Shown: positions 41,508-52,791 of the stretch, in pieces
How positions within the stretch are numbered: position 1 is the stretch's first letter
How the letters are laid out: every line of letters starts with the position of its first letter
Origin: Candidatus Bathyarchaeota archaeon
GTDB lineage: Archaea; Thermoproteota; Bathyarchaeia; 40CM-2-53-6
Assembly: GCA_005881695.1 (NCBI GenBank)
Contig: VBBT01000111.1
Span: 1 to 56,606 of the forward strand
Direction: 5' to 3'
Length of the DNA: 56,606 bases
Notes under the pieces: model-generated
Seen by the model: the letters and a program-made list of their open reading frames with translations, nothing else
What the model was told of the DNA's origin: nothing
Databases searched by the model: none
Position numbers and translations under genes: made by a program

Positions 41508-42110
41508 CTACTTTCGTCGTCGGAATGCTCTGACAAGGTTCTTGGTGCCCTTAACGCGCCAGAGTTGCAAGCCGGCAATGGTTAGTGCACCGAGGGCGGC
41601 TAATAACTGGGATATGATGAACCTAGTTGCCCCGTCAATCTGTGAGACATTGAAGGCCCAGTTGTAGAACGATTCCGTTGTCTGTTTGAACGCTTGAATC
41701 GATGCGACCGCGTTCACGAACCAGTTTGCCTCCACTATGTATGGAGCGAACAGGATGATTGTAAATGGAGCGAGCACCAAGGCTGCTGTCCTGATCATCC
41801 TGAGAGGGTAAAGTATTCTCCGAATTTGTTTGTCTGGTCCAGCCCTCACGTAAGCAGTGCTTTCAAACACGTTCATCCAAAGCGTGACCACCACGAGGGC
41901 GTTTCCAAGCGATAGAAATAACGCGATAGAAATAGGCAGAGTCCAAGAGCCTATCGGGATAGACACGGTCTTGTCAACGAAGCCAGTGTTCAACGCGTTA
42001 TAGAAGAAGAGAAGCTCCAAGCTCACGCAGACCGCGGCGAAAATGATAGCCGGAATCCAGCCACGGAGAACCTCCCATCGCAAAAAGAGTCTGTGGTATT
42101 GCTCGGACAA
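41508..42110 (-). CDS. Unrecognised four-helix membrane protein
   Basis: A 200-residue integral membrane protein with four helices (about 20-40, 55-78, 107-128 and 160-182), a short basic start and a basic end (WRVKGTKNLVRAFRRRK). It has no cofactor or catalytic motif that I can see. It diverges from the operon of the AAA-Lon protein with a 193-bp gap that contains no other gene. Confidence 0.65.
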   Translation of the reverse strand: MSEQYHRLFLRWEVLRGWIPAIIFAAVCVSLELLFFYNALNTGFVDKTVSIPIGSWTLPISIALFLSLGNALVVVTLWMNVFESTAYVRAGPDKQIRRILYPLRMIRTAALVLAPFTIILFAPYIVEANWFVNAVASIQAFKQTTESFYNWAFNVSQIDGATRFIISQLLAALGALTIAGLQLWRVKGTKNLVRAFRRRK

Positions 42111-42303: not shown

Positions 42304-43161
42304 TTGAAAAAACGGATTGGTCTGCTAGCTGTCCTCATGATAACAGTGATGGCTTTGCTAGTCTCCCCAGTCTACTCTGCCACAATGAATCCCCAGGAGA
42401 ACGTGAATCTTTACACTGGTAACAAGCTCATAATCGACTCAAACCAGCCATCGATAAAATCCGTCGTCGTTCGAGGAAACCTTACCGCAGCGACACTTTC
42501 GAATAACGCGTATCCTTCGAAGAATTTCAGTCTAACAACCAATTCAACGCAACTGTACACGGTTGACCTCTTACTCTCATACCAAGCTCCTTACACTTCA
42601 GAGATAGTGATCAGTGATCCCTTGTCGGGGTCCAAGACCCAATACACCTCCTACTTCGTCTCAGGCGGCGACCTGAATCTCACAATATTCGCCTCGTTCC
42701 AAGCAGCTCCCTCAACCGGGCCCAGCACGCCCCTAGGATGGTCATCCTTCTATGGCTGGGTCTCTCAATTCGGAGGAGCATTTCCCTTCTGGATCAAGAT
42801 ACTGTACGCGGTCCTAGGGGCCCAATTCGCCTTTGTCGGATATAGATGGATAAAATTCGAGGATGAACGCAGGAGGATAGAGGGACATCTGCCTCCGCTG
42901 GACCGTGGAAACAAAGTCTATCTTTGGACCGAAGTTATCTTCCGCACCCTCGTCGCCGGTTTCGCCATCAGCCTAGCGATAATGATTGGCGAGGTCTTGG
43001 TACTCCTAATCGCGCAGTATCTTCTCTTCGTCACCCTGAACCTGATATCGCTCGTCGACTTCTTCTCCATATTCTTCGTCGCGGCGGTCGGAACCTTGGT
43101 CTATCTTACGAGAGAGGGCCTCGAGCGTATCTTCGACCTAAAACCGATCATGGAGGACTGA
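42304..43161 (+). CDS. Secreted/membrane partner protein of the AAA-Lon gene
   Basis: A 285-residue protein from TTG 42304. It has a clean signal peptide (MKKRIGLLAVLMITVMALLV to PVYSA), a ~110-residue Asn/Ser/Thr-rich outside domain of beta character, a first membrane helix (WIKILYAVLGAQFAFVGYRW) and a charged cytosolic loop (KFEDERRRIEGHLPPLDRGN). Two long hydrophobic helices follow, ending in a cytosolic LTREGLERIFDLKPIMED. It is 21 nt upstream of the AAA-Lon gene in the same direction, so the two are very likely one operon. I infer a membrane anchor or sensor for the protease. No family recognised. Confidence 0.7.
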   Translation: MKKRIGLLAVLMITVMALLVSPVYSATMNPQENVNLYTGNKLIIDSNQPSIKSVVVRGNLTAATLSNNAYPSKNFSLTTNSTQLYTVDLLLSYQAPYTSEIVISDPLSGSKTQYTSYFVSGGDLNLTIFASFQAAPSTGPSTPLGWSSFYGWVSQFGGAFPFWIKILYAVLGAQFAFVGYRWIKFEDERRRIEGHLPPLDRGNKVYLWTEVIFRTLVAGFAISLAIMIGEVLVLLIAQYLLFVTLNLISLVDFFSIFFVAAVGTLVYLTREGLERIFDLKPIMED

Positions 43162-43182
43162 CCTACGGCATCTAAGATAAGA

Positions 43183-45966
43183 GTGGCATCGAACGATGAT
43201 CAACTGTCCGAATTCCTATTCGGATCCGTAAGACCATGGTGGGACAGGCAACCATGGCTTAGGCGATTGTTTGTTGTCCCCCTCAAATCGGTCGACAAGT
43301 CTTACTCTAGATGGAGCAAGGCCAGAGTCTCGCCCAGAAGATTCCGGAAAATCCAGGAACGCTTGGACAGGGAGTATCCACCGGAGAAATTCTCGCCGGC
43401 AAACTTGATCGGTCGAGACAAAGAATTCAATGTTCTCATGGATTCGTTCAGACTCCATGTACTACGACACCCGATGCTTGCAAAATACTTCGGGCGAGAC
43501 GAGCTTCCAAAGGCCATCTGTCTCGCCGGTGACAGCGGAACAGGGAAGACGTTTCTGACCATGGTCTCATTGAGACAAATGCTCCTGGAAGGATACCGCG
43601 CCGGCGTGTTAGTCACACCTGTAATCCTGAAGGGATCAGATGTCTATTCTGAATTCTACGGAAAAAGCACCCGACAACTGGGCAGATTCCTGGACTACGC
43701 AAGCTCGGTGCCATCCGTTGTGTATATTGACGAATTCCAGAGCTTCGGTAGAAAAGTGAGAGGAGAAACCGGTGCCGAGATAGAAGATACACGGCTCCAA
43801 GACGAGCTAAATCGCTGGCTTGACAAGATCGTAAGCGGAAAAACCCGGACCCTCGTAGTCGTTGCAACAAATGCCTACGAGAAAATCAGAGAAGACATAC
43901 GCCGACGTTTGACCAAGGTCAGCCTCAACGATGGAGTAACCCGAGAAATGCTTCTTGCGGTTGTCGAAGACTCGATAAAACGAGAGGCCTGGCTAGGCTT
44001 GAAAGCGGAAGACCTTCTCGATCTGATGGAGAGAGAGGTCACTATGAGACGGAGAGCTTCACTCACGCCTAGCGACATTCAGGAAATCTTCCGAGAAGTC
44101 AGAAAATCCAAAGAAGCTCCGCTGAGAGAAAAATTCAGAGACAATCGCAACCTCTCCGCTAGCATCGAGAGGCCCAAAATATCTGTCAAGATAGATGACT
44201 TTGTGATTGCGGCGAGGAACATCAAGCTCTACTCCGAACAAGAGAAATCCCAAGAAGTGACAGACGCAGTCTACGTGAGCAAACCCAAAGTGAACAGAGA
44301 AGACGTCGGGGGCCTCCACGATGTTAAGAATAAGATTCTGAACCACATCGCACTAGCCTTCAATCCGTCCATGGCCGAGCTAGGACATCAGTCCAATCCT
44401 AGGTTCTTCTTGTTGGGTCCACCGGGCACCGGCAAAACTCTCCTCGCCATGGTAGCTGCCGGAGAGAACAACGTGGGATTCATCAAGGTTAGAGGCGGCG
44501 AACTCATGAGTGGCGCGAACTACATGGGTGACCCTGAGAAAAGAGTCAAGGATCTATTTTCGCTCGTGCGACAAAAGAGCCCCTGCATACTCCTACTAGA
44601 CGAGGCGGACGCGATCTTCTGGGGAGGAGACCCTTCTAGCAACAAGATTCTTGCCCAAGTAAAGGCGGAGCTGAGCGAGCTGAGGCCCGAGGATAAGGTA
44701 GTTGTCATCGCGACTTCGAACAAAGAACAATTGATCGATCAGGCCACACGGGACAGGTTCGAACCCAACATCTACTACGTTCACCCGCCCCAAAACGATA
44801 GCGAATGGAACGAGGTCGTCGGAATCCATCTAAAGAAATTCAGCAGATACCTACACCAAGAAGTCGATGCGGCTAAAATCACGAAGATGTTTCGACGACA
44901 GAGGGTTCTTAGTCCAAGAGGCGCCGCAGAGACAGTATCGGAAGCTCACCGCATGTGGGCATCAGAGGTTGCTGCGGCCCGCGAGGTCACTCAGGCTAAA
45001 GGCCACGAGACATCGCTTCAAGGTGTCACGCTCAAGTACCAAGATGATCTAGACCGCTTGGACCAGTTACTCGCGATTTACAAGAACGAAGAAAACCCGC
45101 TCACGCCCGACCAGGTCACCCAGGACAACTACAAGATCCGACTCTTCCACTTCCAACGAGCCATCTCAAGCCTTGAATCTCTTGAGGACAAGGAACACCG
45201 CGAAATCGCTGAAGCGTTGATCCTAACCCAGGCAATACCTGGAGTAACGTATGGTCTCTACACTAGTGATAGAGGAAGTGGCGGTATCCTAACTATTCAG
45301 TGCACCGTAAGACCCATCAATCCTGGAGAGAGGCACGTATCGGTTACTGGCCAAGCAAGCTCGATGATGATGGGACAGAGCTTCGTGCCCGATGACTCCG
45401 TAATACAGAGCGCTACCAACGCCGTCGAGGCTGTCAGATCATGGCTGTGGTTGAAAGCTCGAGCAAATCTGTCCAGATTCCATGTCGCGTTTCAGATCCG
45501 ATCCATTCTCGAAGGCGCACCTGGCCAGGGAGTATCGGGTCCAAGTGCAGGCTACGCTATGCTGAACGCACTAGTGTCGGAACTGTCAGGAATCCCGATT
45601 CCACAGTCTAGAGTGATGACCGGAACGATAGGGCTGAAAATGGACATCGGACCAGTTGGCGGGCTCGGTGGAAGAGGCAGAGAAGCTGGGAAGCTTGTGG
45701 GTATTCTGAAGGCCGAGAAGATCAAGGTCACCGACCTACTGGTGCCGGAGTCCAACTTCAAGAACGCCTCCGACGAGATGAAGATGATTCAGGATGAGGG
45801 AATCATCGTTCACCCCATCGCTAACGCTCCCGACGGATGGCCCATCCTCTTCTCGACGAACGCCGAAGACCTTGCGAAAAAGATTCGCGCATCTCTTATC
45901 GAGAGAGAGTCCGTAGTCGATATGGGACCCAGTTCGTCCCGACTCGTTGGAAGTTCAGGGGCCTAA
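43183..45966 (+). CDS. Double AAA+ (Cdc48-like) protein fused to Lon-type protease domain
   Basis: A 927-residue protein without signal or membrane helix. AAA module 1 has Walker A GDSGTGKT (116-123), Walker B SVVYIDE (178-184) and RRRL. AAA module 2 has VNREDVGGLHDVKNKIL, Walker A GPPGTGKT (412-419), ELMSGANYMGDPEKRVKDLF, which matches the Cdc48 pore/Walker neighbourhood, Walker B CILLLDEAD (468-476) and an arginine finger near DRFE. The C-terminal third is a Lon (S16) protease domain with nucleophile S788 in SGPSAGYAM. At the spacing of the catalytic Lys (43 residues on) stands R831; K837 follows a possible short insertion. LonB has a single AAA with membrane helices, so this layout differs. 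Confidence 0.85.
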   Translation: MASNDDQLSEFLFGSVRPWWDRQPWLRRLFVVPLKSVDKSYSRWSKARVSPRRFRKIQERLDREYPPEKFSPANLIGRDKEFNVLMDSFRLHVLRHPMLAKYFGRDELPKAICLAGDSGTGKTFLTMVSLRQMLLEGYRAGVLVTPVILKGSDVYSEFYGKSTRQLGRFLDYASSVPSVVYIDEFQSFGRKVRGETGAEIEDTRLQDELNRWLDKIVSGKTRTLVVVATNAYEKIREDIRRRLTKVSLNDGVTREMLLAVVEDSIKREAWLGLKAEDLLDLMEREVTMRRRASLTPSDIQEIFREVRKSKEAPLREKFRDNRNLSASIERPKISVKIDDFVIAARNIKLYSEQEKSQEVTDAVYVSKPKVNREDVGGLHDVKNKILNHIALAFNPSMAELGHQSNPRFFLLGPPGTGKTLLAMVAAGENNVGFIKVRGGELMSGANYMGDPEKRVKDLFSLVRQKSPCILLLDEADAIFWGGDPSSNKILAQVKAELSELRPEDKVVVIATSNKEQLIDQATRDRFEPNIYYVHPPQNDSEWNEVVGIHLKKFSRYLHQEVDAAKITKMFRRQRVLSPRGAAETVSEAHRMWASEVAAAREVTQAKGHETSLQGVTLKYQDDLDRLDQLLAIYKNEENPLTPDQVTQDNYKIRLFHFQRAISSLESLEDKEHREIAEALILTQAIPGVTYGLYTSDRGSGGILTIQCTVRPINPGERHVSVTGQASSMMMGQSFVPDDSVIQSATNAVEAVRSWLWLKARANLSRFHVAFQIRSILEGAPGQGVSGPSAGYAMLNALVSELSGIPIPQSRVMTGTIGLKMDIGPVGGLGGRGREAGKLVGILKAEKIKVTDLLVPESNFKNASDEMKMIQDEGIIVHPIANAPDGWPILFSTNAEDLAKKIRASLIERESVVDMGPSSSRLVGSSGA

Positions 45967-46415: not shown

Positions 46416-46458
46416 GAGCAATAACATGGACGAAGATGAAACCGGCTCTGAAGAACAT

Positions 46459-48867
46459 ATGAGTCCGACTTGCGAGGGTGTTGCTCCTGGTTGGCCCGGT
46501 ATTCCGCCCCGTTGGACCTCCAGCGCCAAAGAGGGCACAGGAACCTCGGCAAGTTACCAGAGCAGAGTCTGGTTTACAATATCACATGGAATAGTCAACG
46601 AGGTCTACTATCCCCGAATAGACCAAGCCAACACCAGGGACATGGAATTACTCGTAGCTGACGGCGACCGGTACTTCTCCGAAGAAAAACGAGACACCCT
46701 CAGAAAAATTTCACCGTTAGAACAGGGGGTGCCCGGCTACAAGCTCGTCAACTCTTGCAAGAAGGGCCGATTTCGAATAACTAAGACCGTCATCACGGAC
46801 CCAGAACGAGACGTACTCCTTCAGAAGGTCCACTTCGACCCTCTCAAGGGCAAGCTCGAGGATTACGGAGTCTACGCTCTTCTCTCTCCGCACATTGGCA
46901 ACCGGGGCTATGGAAACAATGGATGGGTCGGGAACTACAAGGGAACACCAACGCTCTATGCCCAGAGAGAAGACACATCATTAGCGCTAGCTTGCTCCAA
47001 CCCCTTCAAACGCATGAGCTGCGGGTACGTAGGGGTGAGCGATGGCTGGCAAGATATCAACACGAACAAGAAGATGACATGGTCATACACCAACGCCCCG
47101 AATGGAAACATCGCGCTGACAGCTGAACTCGACCTTTCGACCAACGATGGCGAGTGCGTAGCAGCCCTCGCCTTTGGACGAACACCCGAGGAAGCAGGAC
47201 AAAAAGCCCGAAGCGCACTCCTAGGAGACTTCGACAAAGCGCAACGAGCGTTCGTAGAGGGCTGGACGGAATCCCGGTCCCTGAGCATGGACCTGGGCAA
47301 AACGTACGAGACTGGCTTCGACCTCTACCGCGTCAGCAACACTGTCCTACGGACCCACGAGGAAAAATCCTACCCCGGCGCAGTAATCGCCAGCCTATCC
47401 ATACCTTGGGGATTCAACAAAGGAGACGACGATATCGGGGGTTATCATCTCATCTGGCCCCGAGACCTAGCTCAGGCAGCGGGGGGACTAATCGCCTCCG
47501 GAGACGTCGAACACGCTAGAGGAACCCTCCTCTATCTCATGTCCACCCAAGAACAAGACGGTCACTGGCTCCAGAACATGTGGCTAGATGGAACTCCCTA
47601 CTGGGGAGGGATACAAATGGATGAGACAGCTTTTCCCATACTCATTGCAGATCATCTCACGCGCATCAACGCCCTCACTGGCCTCGACACTTGGCCCACG
47701 ATCCGCCGAGCTGCGGGATACCTCGCACGCAACGGACCCGTAACACAAGAAGACAGATGGGAAGAAGAAGGTGGATACTCGCCATTCACTCTCGCCGCGG
47801 AAATAGCCGGGTTACTCGCCGCGGGCGATTTTGCCGAGGAGAAGGGCGAGCATGGCTTGGCCACATACCTCAAAGAGACTGCTGATACCTGGAACGAAAA
47901 TATAGAAAGATGGACCTATGTTACAGGGACAGAGCTAGCGAAGAAAGTCGGAGTCAAGGGCTACTATGTTAGGATCGCATCTGCGAACGCCGATGATTCA
48001 GAGCTTCGAGCCTCGGCTTTTGTGGGAATAAAGAATCGGGGCTTAGGGCAAGACGTTCTACCTCTAGAGCAGATGGTGAGCGTTGACGCGCTTGCTCTAG
48101 TCCGGTTCGGATTGAGGTCCCCCAAAGACCCGAGAATAGTCGATACGGTCAAAGTAATAGACGCAGTTTTGAAAAAAGATACGAAGACCGGCCCAGTCTG
48201 GCACAGATATAACCTCGACGGCTACGGGGAACATGATGACGGCTCACCCTTCGATGGCACAGGCGTTGGAAGAGGATGGCCCCTGCTAGCAGGAGAACGA
48301 GCGCACTACGAACTCGCTCTGGGAAACATCGAAGAGGCCCAACGGCTCCTGCATGTCATTGAAGCCCAAGCTAGTCTTGGAGGACTAATCCCGGAACAAG
48401 TCTGGGACGCAGAAGACATACCGAAGAGAGGCCTCCGCAACGGCCGACCCACAGGGTCGGCTATGCCGCTGGTTTGGGCCCACGCGGAGTACATCAAACT
48501 CGTCCGGTCAATTCACGAACGAAAGGTCTTCGACATGCCACCTCAGCCAGTAGCCCGATACCAGACAAGCGAAACGACGTCCAGATTCGCCGCTTGGAGG
48601 TTCAACCAGAAATGCCGGACAATTCCTTTCGGAAAAATTCTAAGGATTGAGGTCCTAGCCCCTGCCACGGTCCACTGGAGCGATGACGACTGGCAGACCA
48701 CAATCGACAGCAAGACCATTGACACGGGAATAGGGATACATTACGCGGATTTGCCCACTAGTGGACTATCGCCAGCCTCGAACATCCTCTTCACCTTCTT
48801 CTGGCCCGACGCTAACAAGTGGGAGGGAACAAACTTCCAAGTGACCGTAGGAGCAGGGTCCCAGTGA
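46459..48867 (+). CDS. GH15 glucoamylase-type glycoside hydrolase
   Basis: An 802-residue cytosolic glucan hydrolase of the bacterial/archaeal GH15 class. The N-terminal beta-sandwich begins with the conserved PGIPPRWTSSAKEGTGTS and VWFTISHGIVNEVYYPRIDQ. The (alpha/alpha)6 barrel has HLIWPRDLAQAAGG, the acid glutamates in QEDRWEEEGGYSPFTLAAEI (E435/E436) and the base in GLIPEQVWDAED (E646). It releases glucose from the non-reducing ends of alpha-1,4 glucans. ATG 46459 is preferred over ATG 46426 because of the TATA position and family N-terminus. No signal peptide, so it probably acts on stored glycogen made by the neighbouring enzymes. Confidence 0.92.
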   Translation: MSPTCEGVAPGWPGIPPRWTSSAKEGTGTSASYQSRVWFTISHGIVNEVYYPRIDQANTRDMELLVADGDRYFSEEKRDTLRKISPLEQGVPGYKLVNSCKKGRFRITKTVITDPERDVLLQKVHFDPLKGKLEDYGVYALLSPHIGNRGYGNNGWVGNYKGTPTLYAQREDTSLALACSNPFKRMSCGYVGVSDGWQDINTNKKMTWSYTNAPNGNIALTAELDLSTNDGECVAALAFGRTPEEAGQKARSALLGDFDKAQRAFVEGWTESRSLSMDLGKTYETGFDLYRVSNTVLRTHEEKSYPGAVIASLSIPWGFNKGDDDIGGYHLIWPRDLAQAAGGLIASGDVEHARGTLLYLMSTQEQDGHWLQNMWLDGTPYWGGIQMDETAFPILIADHLTRINALTGLDTWPTIRRAAGYLARNGPVTQEDRWEEEGGYSPFTLAAEIAGLLAAGDFAEEKGEHGLATYLKETADTWNENIERWTYVTGTELAKKVGVKGYYVRIASANADDSELRASAFVGIKNRGLGQDVLPLEQMVSVDALALVRFGLRSPKDPRIVDTVKVIDAVLKKDTKTGPVWHRYNLDGYGEHDDGSPFDGTGVGRGWPLLAGERAHYELALGNIEEAQRLLHVIEAQASLGGLIPEQVWDAEDIPKRGLRNGRPTGSAMPLVWAHAEYIKLVRSIHERKVFDMPPQPVARYQTSETTSRFAAWRFNQKCRTIPFGKILRIEVLAPATVHWSDDDWQTTIDSKTIDTGIGIHYADLPTSGLSPASNILFTFFWPDANKWEGTNFQVTVGAGSQ

Positions 48868-48932
48868 CTGTTCAAACTGAAACGTAAGACTTAGCCGTCA
48901 TTGCTCGCCCAGGGCAGAGGAGCATCCCAACC

Positions 48933-50849
48933 ATGGATCCGGTCATCGAACACGAACTACTGACGCCATACGACATCCACCTCTTCAAAGAAGGAAGACA
49001 CTCCCAACTCTATGAGAAACTAGGCTCCCACCCTATCCAGCTCAACGGGAAGGAAGGCACACATTTCGCGGTGTGGGCTCCTAATGCCAAACAGGTCCAC
49101 GTGATAGGAGATTTCAACCAATGGCGGAACGACAGCCACCCTCTGAAACTTAGAAGCGACGGCTCCGGAATCTGGGAAGGATTCATACCAAGACTCGCGA
49201 GAGGCGCCCTCTACAAGTACCATATCGAGTCCAAAGTCCATGCCGGATATTCCATGGAGAAGGGAGACCCGTTCGCCCTACTCTGGGAAATCCCACCTCG
49301 AACAGCATCAGTCGTCTGGGAGCTCAAACATTCCTGGGATGACAAGGAATGGATGAAAGACCGATCGAAGAAGAATTCTCTAGACTCACCCCTCGCCATT
49401 TACGAGATCCATCTCGGATCCTGGAAGCGGATCCCAGAAGACAACCAGCGATGGCTAACCTATAGAGAGTTGGCGAAGGACCTGCCAGGCTACCTGGAAG
49501 AAATGCAGTTCACTCATGTGGAATTCATGCCCGTGATGGAGCATCCCTACAGTCGGTCTTGGGGGTACCAGACTCTCGGCTATTTCGCGCCCACGAGCCG
49601 GTTCGGCATACCCGAAGACTTCATGCACCTTGTCGATGAGCTTCACAAAAAAGGATTCGGAGTAATCCTGGACTGGGTCCCCTCTCACTTTCCATCAGAC
49701 GCCTACGGACTCGCCTACTATGATGGCTCACACCTTTTCGAGTATTCTGACCCTCAAAAGAGGCACCATCCTGATTGGAAGAGTTTCATCTTTGATTTTG
49801 GAAAGAACGAAGTCCGATCTTTCCTGGCGAGCAGTGCAGTCTTCTGGCTAAACAAATACCACGCCGACGGGCTGAGAGTCGACGGAGTAGCGTCAATGCT
49901 CTACTTGGACTACTCCCGAAAGAAGGGTGAATGGGCGTCTAACATGTATGGAGGCAGGGAGAACCTGGAAGCACTATCCTTCATCAAGGAGCTCAACCAG
50001 GCAGTATACCGCGCTCAGCCTGACGTCCAAGTGATCGCGGAAGAATCAACCGCGTGGCCTATGGTATCCCGCCCAACTCACGTGGGAGGCCTGGGTTTCG
50101 GTATGAAGTGGAACATGGGCTGGATGCATGACTCGCTGGAATACTTCGCAAAGGACTCCGTTTACAGAAAGCACCATCATGACCAGCTCACCTTCAGTCT
50201 CTGGTACGCGTTCTCGGAAAACTTCATCCTCCCATTATCCCATGATGAAGTCGTCTACGGAAAGCGTTCTCTACTCGACAAGATGCCAGGTGATACCTGG
50301 CAGAAGTTCGCTAACCTCAGACTCCTCTACGGCTACATGTACGGTCATCCTGGGAAGAAACTCCTCTTTATGGGTGGAGATTTCGGGCAGCGGAACGAAT
50401 GGAGCTTCGAGAAGAGCCTCGACTGGCATTTACTAGAACAGGAACCGCATAGGAGGCTTCAACAATGGGTAAAAGACCTAAACAAGATCTATCGAACTGA
50501 AGAGGCGCTTCACCAGCTGGACTTCGAGAGAAGTGGCTTCGAATGGGTGGACACCAAAGACTGGGAAAAGAGCATAATCAGTTTCGTCCGGAAAGAAAAG
50601 GCCCAGAAAAGTCAAGTCCTAGTTGCGCTGAATTTCACCCCGGTGCCCCGAATGAACTATCGACTGGGGGTTAGCGGAAGTGGATACTGGAAGGAAATTC
50701 TGAACAGTGATGCCGTCGAATATGGTGGCAGCGGCCAGGGCAATCTTGGCGGAGTAAGCACCGACGCTCACGCATTTCACGGCAAAGAACATTCAATTCG
50801 TATTAGTCTACCGCCTCTGGGGGCCCTGTTTTTCAAGAACGAAGTGTGA
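48933..50849 (+). CDS. glgB: 1,4-alpha-glucan branching enzyme (GH13)
   Basis: Creates alpha-1,6 branches in glycogen; 638 residues, the usual length without the extra N-terminal module of some bacterial GlgB. A CBM48 domain (about 30-125, HFAVWAPNAKQVHVIGDFNQ) precedes the TIM barrel. Catalytic residues are D317 in GLRVDGVASMLYLDYSR, E370 in VIAEESTAW and D438 in LSHDEVVYGKRSLLDKMPGD, all family signatures. A C-terminal beta domain follows. It lies 65 bp after the GH15 gene. GH13-type branching enzymes are typical of bacteria and uncommon in archaea, which often use GH57, so acquisition from bacteria is possible. Confidence 0.96.
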   Translation: MDPVIEHELLTPYDIHLFKEGRHSQLYEKLGSHPIQLNGKEGTHFAVWAPNAKQVHVIGDFNQWRNDSHPLKLRSDGSGIWEGFIPRLARGALYKYHIESKVHAGYSMEKGDPFALLWEIPPRTASVVWELKHSWDDKEWMKDRSKKNSLDSPLAIYEIHLGSWKRIPEDNQRWLTYRELAKDLPGYLEEMQFTHVEFMPVMEHPYSRSWGYQTLGYFAPTSRFGIPEDFMHLVDELHKKGFGVILDWVPSHFPSDAYGLAYYDGSHLFEYSDPQKRHHPDWKSFIFDFGKNEVRSFLASSAVFWLNKYHADGLRVDGVASMLYLDYSRKKGEWASNMYGGRENLEALSFIKELNQAVYRAQPDVQVIAEESTAWPMVSRPTHVGGLGFGMKWNMGWMHDSLEYFAKDSVYRKHHHDQLTFSLWYAFSENFILPLSHDEVVYGKRSLLDKMPGDTWQKFANLRLLYGYMYGHPGKKLLFMGGDFGQRNEWSFEKSLDWHLLEQEPHRRLQQWVKDLNKIYRTEEALHQLDFERSGFEWVDTKDWEKSIISFVRKEKAQKSQVLVALNFTPVPRMNYRLGVSGSGYWKEILNSDAVEYGGSGQGNLGGVSTDAHAFHGKEHSIRISLPPLGALFFKNEV

Positions 50850-50872
50850 GCGTACTTGGATAATATTCAGTT

Positions 50873-52684
50873 TCAGTTTCCCGCTGACATTCTGCCTTTG
50901 GGATAGACCGTTGGCTTCGTGGATAATTGTTTCGCCTTTGCGTAGCGGGCAAGTGCGAGGAGACCCGCGTTCTTCCATCTGAACTTCTCCTCAACTCTGT
51001 TCCTGCTGTTCTCCCTGATCGTCGATCCGAACCGCGGGTTCTTGCCGACCATTTCTCTGATATGCTTGGAAGGAATCTCTTCCACCGAATAGTTCATGTC
51101 TACTTCTCCACGATGTGATGACTCGTCGGTCTTCATCGTTATGATCATAGAAATCAGGGCAGAAGAGAGAGATCTGGCGTCTTCGGCGGGAGTTAAGATT
51201 CCTGTTCCCCGATCGCCATATTTGTGGATGTCAAGAACTGTTTCTCTAAGGCCGCCGACGTCAGCCCCAACGACGGGGTTCCCGGTGATCATTGATTCAA
51301 GGGCGCTGATGCCGAAGGGCTCCACCCTAGAGGGCATTGCGTAAACGTCCGCTGCAGCATGGGAGAGGAGATAGAGGGGACGGTCCCTGCCGAAGATGAG
51401 TCTAACATTCCTCGGGTATCCTGCGGCAACCATGCTGGTTGACTTGTTTGAGTCCGGATTATTTGATGGCAGTAGGAATAATAGAAACTTGGCGCCGGGG
51501 AGTGCTTTGAGAACGCGTGGGACCGCGTCAAGGAGGATATCGACGCCTTTCTGTGGACTCAATCTCCCTGTCATGAGAACGAGAGGTCCGTCCTCTTCAA
51601 AGGGCTCAATCAGCCGCTTGCTCTGATCTTGTTGATCTTGAGATCTATCGAAATTGTTTTGACTGTCAACTATCGGTTTCGCTTGAGCCAGGCCTTGAGT
51701 GAGAAGGTGTCTCCTAAGTTCCCAGCGATTTAGGTACTGATCACTCAGGCCGATGGGTCTCTCACTAGCTTGATTAACTCGAACCATTGAATTGATCTCT
51801 TCGTTATCCCAATCGCATCCATTGTACACGTGTCCACTCTTCCCAGTGACCGCGTTCCCGACGTAATCGGAAACATCATGGGTCAGGTAAGAGCTACTCA
51901 CGGAGGTGACATAATTCGCCTCGTAACATCCGAACCTTTCTAGGGAGTCATGACAGTACTCTTCCCAGACCTGACGGTATCCAAGTGTGAAGACCCCTTT
52001 TCTTCCAATCCTTACATCATGCTGAAGATCCCGGATTCCACACCATGCGTCCGATCCGTAATGCCAAGGCAGGGAAACACGCCCAAGCAGATGGATAGTA
52101 AATACTAGTGGAACTGTTACACGATTTTTCTCAAGAGACTGCTTCAAAGCAACTCCTGCTGGTATCATGTGCCAGTCGTGGGCGTGAATCAAATCGGGAA
52201 GATTGCTAAGCGACCCTGTGGCGAGCAGGAAGTCTGAGTATGTCTTCACTGTTCTCGCGAACAAGCTCATTTTTTCAAACATGACATTGCTATCATAGAG
52301 AGTTCGGTCATCGAGCCATTTGCTTGTCCGTCCATCCAAGCCCTTTACGAGGACATAGTGGACTGAATCTCTGTAGCCCCTTTCAACCCCGGCTAAGTAA
52401 TGATAATGGACGCGGTCTGTCCCCGTTCTGTACCCGTTCGCGATGAAAGTCGTTTCGTCCTTCAGGTTGTAGGCTGTTCTCAAATCCTGGTCCAGGTGCC
52501 TCCCATGACTCGGCAGGAAAACTGTGACTTCTATCTTGGAGTCCTGCGCGAGGGTCCTGGCAAGTCCCGCGACAGCCTCTCCTAAACCACCAGCCTGTGC
52601 GAGTCCTGCACACTCATAACTAAGCATCCAAACTCTGTTTACTGGGTGTGCCCCCCGACTCAGTGGGAGTTGTTGAGAAGTCAT
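50873..52684 (-). CDS. glgA: Glycogen synthase-like glycosyltransferase (GT5/GT4-type GT-B)
   Basis: A 603-residue GT-B enzyme that would extend alpha-1,4 glucan from nucleotide-activated glucose. The N-terminal acceptor loop is YECAGLAQAGGLGEAVAGLA (a variant of the KxGGL motif). HAHDWHMIPAGVALKQSL follows near residue 190, and the C-terminal donor site has LMTGRLSPQKGVDILLDAVP and YAMPSRVEPFGISALESMIT with the E-x7-E motif. ATG 52684 is preceded by GAGGAG, and a TATA box lies above it; a longer frame to 52768 would run through that promoter. It is convergent with glgB. Confidence 0.88.
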   Translation of the reverse strand: MTSQQLPLSRGAHPVNRVWMLSYECAGLAQAGGLGEAVAGLARTLAQDSKIEVTVFLPSHGRHLDQDLRTAYNLKDETTFIANGYRTGTDRVHYHYLAGVERGYRDSVHYVLVKGLDGRTSKWLDDRTLYDSNVMFEKMSLFARTVKTYSDFLLATGSLSNLPDLIHAHDWHMIPAGVALKQSLEKNRVTVPLVFTIHLLGRVSLPWHYGSDAWCGIRDLQHDVRIGRKGVFTLGYRQVWEEYCHDSLERFGCYEANYVTSVSSSYLTHDVSDYVGNAVTGKSGHVYNGCDWDNEEINSMVRVNQASERPIGLSDQYLNRWELRRHLLTQGLAQAKPIVDSQNNFDRSQDQQDQSKRLIEPFEEDGPLVLMTGRLSPQKGVDILLDAVPRVLKALPGAKFLLFLLPSNNPDSNKSTSMVAAGYPRNVRLIFGRDRPLYLLSHAAADVYAMPSRVEPFGISALESMITGNPVVGADVGGLRETVLDIHKYGDRGTGILTPAEDARSLSSALISMIITMKTDESSHRGEVDMNYSVEEIPSKHIREMVGKNPRFGSTIRENSRNRVEEKFRWKNAGLLALARYAKAKQLSTKPTVYPKGRMSAGN

Positions 52685-52728
52685 TCTCCTCGTTGGCATC
52701 CCAGATGGTCGGTGACCGCTTCTAAGGG

Positions 52729-52737
52729 ATAATAAAG
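52729..52737 (-). promoter_or_regulatory. TATA box for the glycogen synthase gene
   Basis: CTTTATTAT on the minus strand, 45-53 nt upstream of ATG 52684, leaving a short leader that contains the GAGGAG ribosome binding site. Confidence 0.45.
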
Positions 52738-52791
52738 ACAGAAAGCCTAAAGTGAAACCGTCTTCCATCGAACAATTCGGAAGCGAAGTTG

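Follow-up and report, generated by a model that had tools for sequence, protein, structure and literature searches.

Here we describe a pair of archaeal genes at positions 42304-45966 of a 56,606-nucleotide stretch from a Candidatus Bathyarchaeota genome (contig VBBT01000111.1, assembly GCA_005881695.1; the whole stretch is referred to below as the window). The genes encode a membrane protein and, immediately downstream, a protein in which two Cdc48-like AAA modules are fused to a Lon (S16) protease domain. The AAA-AAA-Lon fusion is a family, not a one-off. With moderate confidence, we read the gene pair as a membrane-recruited, two-component unfoldase-protease that would serve membrane-protein quality control where membrane-bound LonB is not found. 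The domain order, the intact motifs, their conservation, purifying selection and the pairing of the two genes are established at the level of sequence.

A family of AAA-AAA-Lon fusions

The first-pass annotation, made from the letters of the window alone, had described a 927-residue chain with two AAA+ modules bearing intact Walker motifs, a Lon S16 domain and no membrane helix; the open reading frame, Pfam matches and motifs agree with it. PF00004 (AAA) matches two stretches (151.5 bits, best at residues 409-531), and PF05362 (Lon_C) matches residues 682-871 with 46 bits against a cut-off of 21.1, which places the C-terminal part in S16. No membrane helix is predicted in the chain by a 19-residue hydropathy scan (maximum 1.19, threshold 1.6), in keeping with the annotation. 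LonB controls exceed the threshold in 19 of 19 cases (maxima 1.89-2.73). The scan lacks specificity, as the threshold is likewise exceeded by 9 of 14 LonA proteins (with values of up to 1.84) and, in their S16 part, by 12 of 33 family members (with values of up to 1.87).

Among the best 25 of 28 NCBIfam matches to the protein, no model exceeds its own cut-off. The CDC48 model TIGR01243 reaches 148.2 bits over residues 94-569 (cut-off 802.7), and the best stretches of the Lon models lie within residues 681-870, all far below their cut-offs. The 12 members of a family alignment (A2) all match the CDC48 and Lon models alike, and no Lon subfamily model was found to match the window protein or these members over their full length. 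In a Foldseek search the AlphaFold model of the fusion, which was built on a Cdc48 alignment, matched p97 weakly (TM-scores to the query 0.25-0.29).

Searching archaeal genomes with the whole protein, a check that the first-pass annotation had proposed, recovered relatives of the same layout in 39 of 256 genomes of the source's class (E-value <= 1e-45) and in 43 of 398 genomes drawn evenly from the phylum, with 16 fusion-bearing genomes shared between the two sets. Among class genomes with completeness of 90% or more and contamination of 5% or less, 18 of 120 carry the fusion. Within the class it occurs in family f1, which includes the window (19 of 21 genomes), and in families f5, f9, f14 and f17. 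Outside f1, identity to the window protein is 37-41% in one deep clade of the family (clade A) and 29-36% in the other (clade B), and the matches span most of the chain unless the contig is broken (as, among others, in G016, G001, G399, G328 and G310). The presence of the same chain in many genomes rules out an assembly error.

Other searches were less productive. A contig scan with alignment A2, whose two patterns corresponded to a Walker A motif and to the stretch after a pore loop, was swamped by ordinary Cdc48, and none of the 80 loci listed is a family member. Via such Cdc48 loci, 22 named genomes showed only Cdc48-level similarity (best 1.8e-31) and 27 further genomes gave no match at 1e-33, which is weak as evidence of absence. 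No relative was found among viral sequences with the family S16 alignment.

A neighbouring gene for a membrane protein

The first-pass annotation had tied the fusion to the membrane through the co-directional gene beginning at 42304, a proposal strengthened by the recurrence of the gene pair across the phylum. We inspected the 5' flank of 22 loci, the window and 21 others. In 21 of them the fusion gene is directly flanked by a gene for a membrane protein, co-directional in 19 cases and divergent in two (L153 and L159); at the twenty-second (L046) the contig ends at the flank, and a partner was found there by a clade B profile search. In f1 the partner lies directly upstream in all 16 distinct loci, the window's included (three more rows repeat the same genomes, and loci that begin where a contig ends, L018, L019 and L021 for instance, were left out). 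All 17 genomes of f14 and f17 with the fusion have it on the same strand, at a distance of 43-60 base pairs (bp) upstream as judged from match coordinates. Of the 256 class genomes, 18 are matched by the clade B partner profile (A10), namely these 17 and G175. In the latter, an f14 genome of 330 contigs, the partner stands at G175:C38:2258-2971 and the fusion was not found, perhaps through an assembly gap.

The partners have three to five hydrophobic segments each in the hydropathy scan. Those of f5 are short (124-134 amino acids (aa), three segments, no ectodomain), and the 408-aa reading frame at L151 probably has an over-long start. Upstream of one fusion gene the partner is duplicated in tandem (L048, 8964-10635, minus strand). 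A single-sequence AlphaFold model of the window partner has a predicted local distance difference test (pLDDT) score of 55, and below 50 in the ectodomain. By BLAST, clade A partners other than those of f1 can be linked to one another, as can those of clade B, and the f5 partners match clade A partners with E-values as low as 2e-23. In neither partner set (10 and 9 proteins scanned) does any Pfam family match two or more members; the best match is DUF5671, in one protein, with an E-value of 8.6e-4. From their layout and position, all partners are likely to share an origin.

The segment of the fusion that precedes the first AAA module is a candidate for docking to the membrane partner or to a lipid surface. 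Tryptophans 19, 20 and 44 are present in all 32 members that cover this segment, and residue 41 is Tyr in 31 of them and Phe in one. Its hydrophobic moment is 0.33-0.62, computed without a control.

Alternatively, the protein could be a soluble, general unfoldase-protease of the cytosol, with the upstream membrane protein merely a co-transcribed neighbour. Arguing for this case, the chain has no membrane helix, the partner evolves faster than the fusion, and the f5 partner has shrunk and lost its ectodomain. Counter to this, the pair is kept while other neighbours differ by eye, adjacency holds even where the partner is divergently oriented, and 17 of the 18 genomes matched by the clade B partner profile carry the fusion. 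We regard a purely cytosolic role as unlikely, and recruitment to the membrane by the partner, predicted by analogy with known systems, as likely.

Table 1. Features of the gene pair in the window
Feature	Coordinates	Strand	Remarks
Membrane partner, 285 aa	42304..43161	+	TTG start; ends 21 bp before the fusion gene; N-terminal signal or transmembrane helix, ectodomain (strands, low-confidence model), C-terminal transmembrane helices, acidic C-terminal tail (PIMED)
AAA-AAA-Lon (S16) tandem protein	43183..45966	+	927 aa; GTG start
N-terminal segment, aa 1-67	43183..43383	+	W19 W20 ... Y41-x2-W44; aromatic and cationic; in the position of the Cdc48 N domain
AAA module 1, aa 68-345, Cdc48-D1-like	43384..44217	+	Walker A GDSGTGKT (aa 116-123); Walker B IDEF (VVYIDEF); presumed pore loop FYG; RRR (aa 240-242)
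AAA module 2 and alpha subdomain, aa 346-640, Cdc48-D2-like	44218..45102	+	Walker A GPPGTGKT (aa 412-419); Walker B LLLDEAD; presumed pore loop YMG; invariant S577-P578-R579
HFQRA helix (HFEKA in relatives) and Lon S16 domain, aa 641-927	45103..45963	+	Lon_C 682-871; Ser788 in SGPSAG; Lys837 in GGLGGRGREAGK, 6 residues beyond the canonical GGxxxK

LonB, a second Lon and the proteasome

The LonB model TIGR00764 exceeds its cut-off in none of the 66 fusion genomes. Weaker matches (E-value <= 1e-20) occur in 20 of them: 16 in f1, where 15 cover model positions 161-591 and one is partial, and 4 on the fusion itself. The one of these 16 f1 proteins that was inspected is a second Lon of the source genome (L147, G000:C78), an 808-aa open frame with AAA_32, LonB_AAA-LID, LonC_helical and Lon_C domains in Pfam and no membrane segment found by hydropathy. 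AAA_32 is described by Pfam as LonB-like; by absence of LonB we mean the absence of a membrane-bound LonB that exceeds the TIGR00764 cut-off. On this evidence, f1 has a second Lon that is LonB-like and apparently soluble.

A LonB-like protein (E-value <= 1e-70) is encoded in 76 of the 256 class genomes, from families f12, f13, f15, f16, f18, f21 and f27. Within the class, LonB-like proteins and the fusion share no genome (0 among 39) and no family. Outside the class the fusion cannot be called a replacement, because in the phylum draw LonB at E-value <= 1e-100 was seen within it alone. Genes for the 20S proteasome are present in all 15 fusion genomes tested, and the fusion is therefore no stand-in for the proteasome.

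These patterns bear on a further possibility, that the pair is a protease tethered to the membrane for regulation or processing and dedicated to a few substrates, such as its own partner or envelope proteins. The patchy distribution (39 of 256 genomes), the 20S proteasome, the second Lon of f1 and the partner with an ectodomain that adjoins the fusion in most loci examined all speak for such a role. On the other side, no third gene is common to all 22 loci, as judged from lists of open reading frames by eye, with no systematic clustering. We consider a dedicated protease of this kind improbable, and a LonB-like housekeeping role evenly balanced between yes and no.

Thirteen IMG/VR contigs (L267-L279) encode LonB-like proteases. 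The eight viral proteins included in the S16 tree described below group with the LonB-like proteins of the class and have membrane segments. These would be LonB proteins carried by viruses that are probably archaeal.

Catalytic and motor residues

Conservation was counted over 33 aligned members including the window protein, one of which (L160) is a fragment without the first module. Ser788 and Lys837, the Ser-Lys dyad of S16, are invariant (33/33). In the second AAA module K418, D473 and E474 are identical in 33 of 33; in the first, K122, D183 and E184 are identical in the 32 members that cover it, as is the RRR at the position expected for arginine fingers. In comparison with Cdc48, both presumed pore loops of the window protein are aromatic. 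The S-P-R of residues 577-579 (33/33) falls in the alpha subdomain of the second module, about where Cdc48 has GAD. It is a possible sensor-2 arginine, a feature of Lon-type AAA modules, in an otherwise Cdc48-like module.

Comparison with a close relative (L004) gave proportions of nonsynonymous (pN) and synonymous (pS) differences of 0.012 and 0.349 for the fusion, 0.007 and 0.367 for its Lon part, and 0.030 and 0.325 for the partner. The corresponding ratios of nonsynonymous to synonymous substitution rates are about 0.03 for the fusion and about 0.07 for the partner. The fusion is a real gene, because pN is far below pS. In the same pair each domain taken alone is constrained, S16 as strongly as the motors, and the C-terminal 47 residues are looser. 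The 33/33 conservation of Ser and Lys, with purifying selection on the Lon part, speaks against a degenerate Lon, a reading that we reject.

The stretch from the GG motif to the catalytic Lys is longer by six residues in f1 and by four in the other clades, giving the family signature GGxxxRG(xx)xGK. The S16 profile of the family finds solved LonB at 2.4e-20; in the alignment to 1z0b the insertion precedes the Lys, so that K837 takes the place of the catalytic Lys. The KIEAA or KFLAA pattern after the Lys in relatives also points to Lys837 as catalytic.

According to a published account, Ser and Lys are separated by exactly 42 residues in Lon subfamilies A and B (PMC9569914). In the fusion family the spacing is 48 in 6 of 33 members and 46 in the other 27. 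LonA (14/14), haloarchaeal LonB (2/2) and AAA_32-type proteins (3/3) have 42, and the LonB-like proteins of the source's class (9/9) and of viruses (7/8, one unresolved) have 46, with the insertion elsewhere. Because these LonB-like proteins also have 46, it is the position of the insertion, and not the spacing alone, that defines the family. The class LonB-like proteins (L163-L176) have Pro before the catalytic Ser and a Ser-Lys spacing of 46 (9/9), versus Asp and 42 in the published LonB rules.

The insertion of 4-6 residues just ahead of the catalytic Lys would fit a Cdc48-like chaperone or segregase with a proteolytically dead Lon domain that serves only as an oligomerization ring. Such a protein would have had to retain Ser and Lys in 33 of 33 members over two deep clades and a Lon region as strongly constrained as that measured against L004, and we consider it quite unlikely. 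By analogy with characterized S16 and AAA proteins, the fusion is very probably an active ATP-dependent protease.

Origin of the parts

The S16 tree comprised 69 rows: 33 of the family, 14 LonA, 17 LonB (from the class and from viral contigs), 2 haloarchaeal LonB and 3 of AAA_32 type; L162 was excluded. The family S16 domains form one clade (support 100/97), apart from the LonA, LonB and AAA_32-type rows, in a tree for which the program warns of long branches. A separate Lon class, which the first-pass annotation had put forward, is supported by this clade together with the lack of a full-length match to any Lon subfamily.

The motor appears to be that of a Cdc48-type protein. In a profile comparison that covered Cdc48 D1 and D2, PAN-like and LonA AAA modules (LonB's own AAA was left out), the second module scores highest with D2 in all 17 rows. 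For the window protein (P0001) the scores are 124.1 bits with D2, 99.8 with D1, 97.7 with the PAN-like profile and 27.3 with that of LonA, which reaches 15.6-28.3 bits across rows. The first module scores highest with D1 in 15 of 17 rows, the two exceptions differing by less than 1 bit. The annotation had held that a second module nested inside ordinary LonB would speak against a separate class; we see no such placement, within the limits of a comparison that lacked the LonB AAA.

Profile scores thus identify the tandem as D1/D2-type classic AAA of the Cdc48 family, and trees are less clear. With a LonA outgroup, LonA is pulled in among the module 2 sequences on a branch 4.8 long and module 2 is not one clade, nor is it when module 1 is omitted. 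Without LonA, a single module 2 clade stands next to Cdc48 D2, modestly supported (88/84); without both LonA and module 1, module 2 is again one clade, with the sister group unresolved. The assignment of the motor relies on the profile scores and not on these trees.

The alpha subdomain that follows the core of module 2 aligns weakly with that of Cdc48 D2, and the HFEKA helix gives a second weak match, to the last Cdc48 helix (probabilities 7-11%, E-values 0.003-0.005). The segment after module 2 scores lower against LonA and LonB (0.2-0.4%). From these alignments we infer that S16 was joined to a Cdc48-like protein where the C-terminal tail begins.

Comparison with known systems

Like archaeal Cdc48/VAT, the fusion has a D1-like module followed by a D2-like module, and its best sequence matches among solved structures are 5g4g and 5vc7, VCP-like ATPase chains that we take to be archaeal Cdc48. 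It differs in lacking the Cdc48 N domain, in place of which about 68 residues with their own conserved motif precede the first module, and in carrying an S16 protease after the D2 alpha subdomain. It does not belong to the Cdc48 family as defined by the TIGR01243 cut-off and an N domain.

With archaeal LonB the fusion shares a Ser-Lys S16 protease joined to an ATPase, its best S16 match among solved structures and a probable link to the membrane. LonB has a single Lon-type AAA module with a membrane insertion, whereas the fusion has two classic AAA modules, no transmembrane helices of its own (no segment over the threshold), a separate membrane gene and a family-specific insertion before the Lys. 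Its score with TIGR00764 is 27.9 bits against a cut-off of 516.6, which the LonB-like proteins of the class also miss (best 397) and which therefore does not decide the matter, and its S16 domain stands outside the LonB rows, subject to the long-branch warning. The solved archaeal LonB chains are 1z0b and 3k1j (TIGR00764; organism names partly after PMC4343526).

Bacterial LonA and LonBA share with the fusion the S16 domain and a Pro before the catalytic Ser (GPSAG). The fusion differs from LonA in that no LON N-domain appears among the best 25 of 28 Pfam families and its AAA modules are not of LonA type; the best stretch of TIGR00763, residues 681-870, scores 60.5 bits against a cut-off of 608. 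AAA_32-type Lon proteins (L147, L184) also share the S16 domain, but they have one Lon-type AAA module in the order AAA_32, LonB_AAA-LID, LonC_helical and Lon_C, and a separate S16 clade.

FtsH resembles the fusion in its covalent joining of a classic-clade AAA to a protease and, by analogy, in a probable membrane role. However, the FtsH protease is a zinc M41 enzyme, whereas the fusion has a serine-lysine S16 domain, two AAA modules and a separately encoded membrane part. PAN or Cdc48 acting with the 20S particle provides a classic AAA unfoldase that feeds a peptidase chamber, as we suppose for the fusion, in which the peptidase is covalently attached and of Lon type.

Proposed mechanism

Ring assembly, protease activity, partner binding, substrates and recruitment are all read across from known families. 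The 927-residue protein would most likely form a stack of rings, in which two Cdc48-derived AAA rings may grip substrates by their aromatic pore loops and feed them by threading into a Ser-Lys protease ring of Lon type, fused in place of the Cdc48 C-terminal tail. The aromatic-cationic N-terminal segment would dock on the upstream-encoded membrane protein, which with its cytoplasmic loop and tail could recruit the motor to the membrane and perhaps select substrates. The two genes would thereby specify a two-component ATP-dependent protease of the archaeal membrane, with a probable role in membrane-protein quality control where membrane-bound LonB is not found, comparable to that of FtsH in bacteria and LonB in other archaea.

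Several observations weigh against this proposal. The AlphaFold model of the fusion is weak (mean pLDDT 58, with the Lon part mostly below 50). The six-residue insertion before Lys837 (four residues elsewhere) could disturb the dyad, and a MAFFT alignment with viral Lon proteins sets the canonical Lys on Arg831, which is also invariant. The fusion is not the only Lon in the window's genome, and a match like the second Lon occurs in 15 other f1 fusion genomes. At the thresholds used, 141 of the 256 class genomes have neither a LonB-like protein nor the fusion. The 27 genomes with LonB (E-value <= 1e-100) among the 398 of the phylum draw all belong to the source's class; mutual exclusion rests on that one class and follows its families, because no LonB is seen elsewhere in the draw. 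The partners are also divergent: in hhalign the window partner aligns to those of clade A with 27% probability (E-value 7e-4) and to those of clade B with 3%, and clade A to clade B with 1.4%.

An anti-phage defence ATPase, suggested by PADLOC/NCBIfam matches to IetA (97 bits) and IteA (96 bits), is very improbable and was rejected on these sub-cut-off scores and the lack of a PADLOC match for the partner at 0.01, since the best stretch is only the second AAA module, far below the IteA cut-off of 510 bits, the window gene sits between lysyl-tRNA synthetase and glycogen genes (with no scan of other loci for defence neighbours), and the fusion is present in 19 of 21 f1 genomes.

We found no description of a Cdc48-type AAA tandem fused to Lon in the titles and abstract openings of the open-access literature, and the architecture is apparently undescribed. 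To our knowledge, no other architecture covalently joins classic-clade tandem AAA modules to S16. In one account, protease modules reside in separate subunits except in FtsH and Lon, and the Cdc48 and Lon ATPases belong to different AAA+ clades, classic AAA and HCLR (PMC7226402). The gene pair departs from that pattern, in that a Cdc48-type motor carries a Lon protease, and suggests that a motor of unrelated kind can power an S16 ring. An earlier survey counted no Lon in 5 crenarchaeal genomes (PMC2605481). The gene pair is a concrete candidate for clearing faulty or damaged membrane proteins in archaea without membrane-bound LonB. If this is true, it would represent a new AAA+ protease architecture and a third ATP-dependent protease of archaea. 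We lean slightly towards this view of a third, partner-recruited enzyme beside the 20S proteasome and LonB, one that replaces membrane-bound LonB in parts of the phylum.

Neighbouring genes

Directly downstream of the fusion (46426-52768) lie genes for GH15/glucodextranase-like, branching-enzyme and glycogen/starch-synthase proteins, which were not seen, by eye, next to the fusion at the other loci whose flanks were inspected. On the other side, divergent from the partner gene, a 200-aa protein with four predicted transmembrane segments is encoded at 41508-42110 (minus strand). A similar gene occupies the same place at L052 (5744-6352, minus strand), and the 200-aa protein is possibly a third component, specific to f1.

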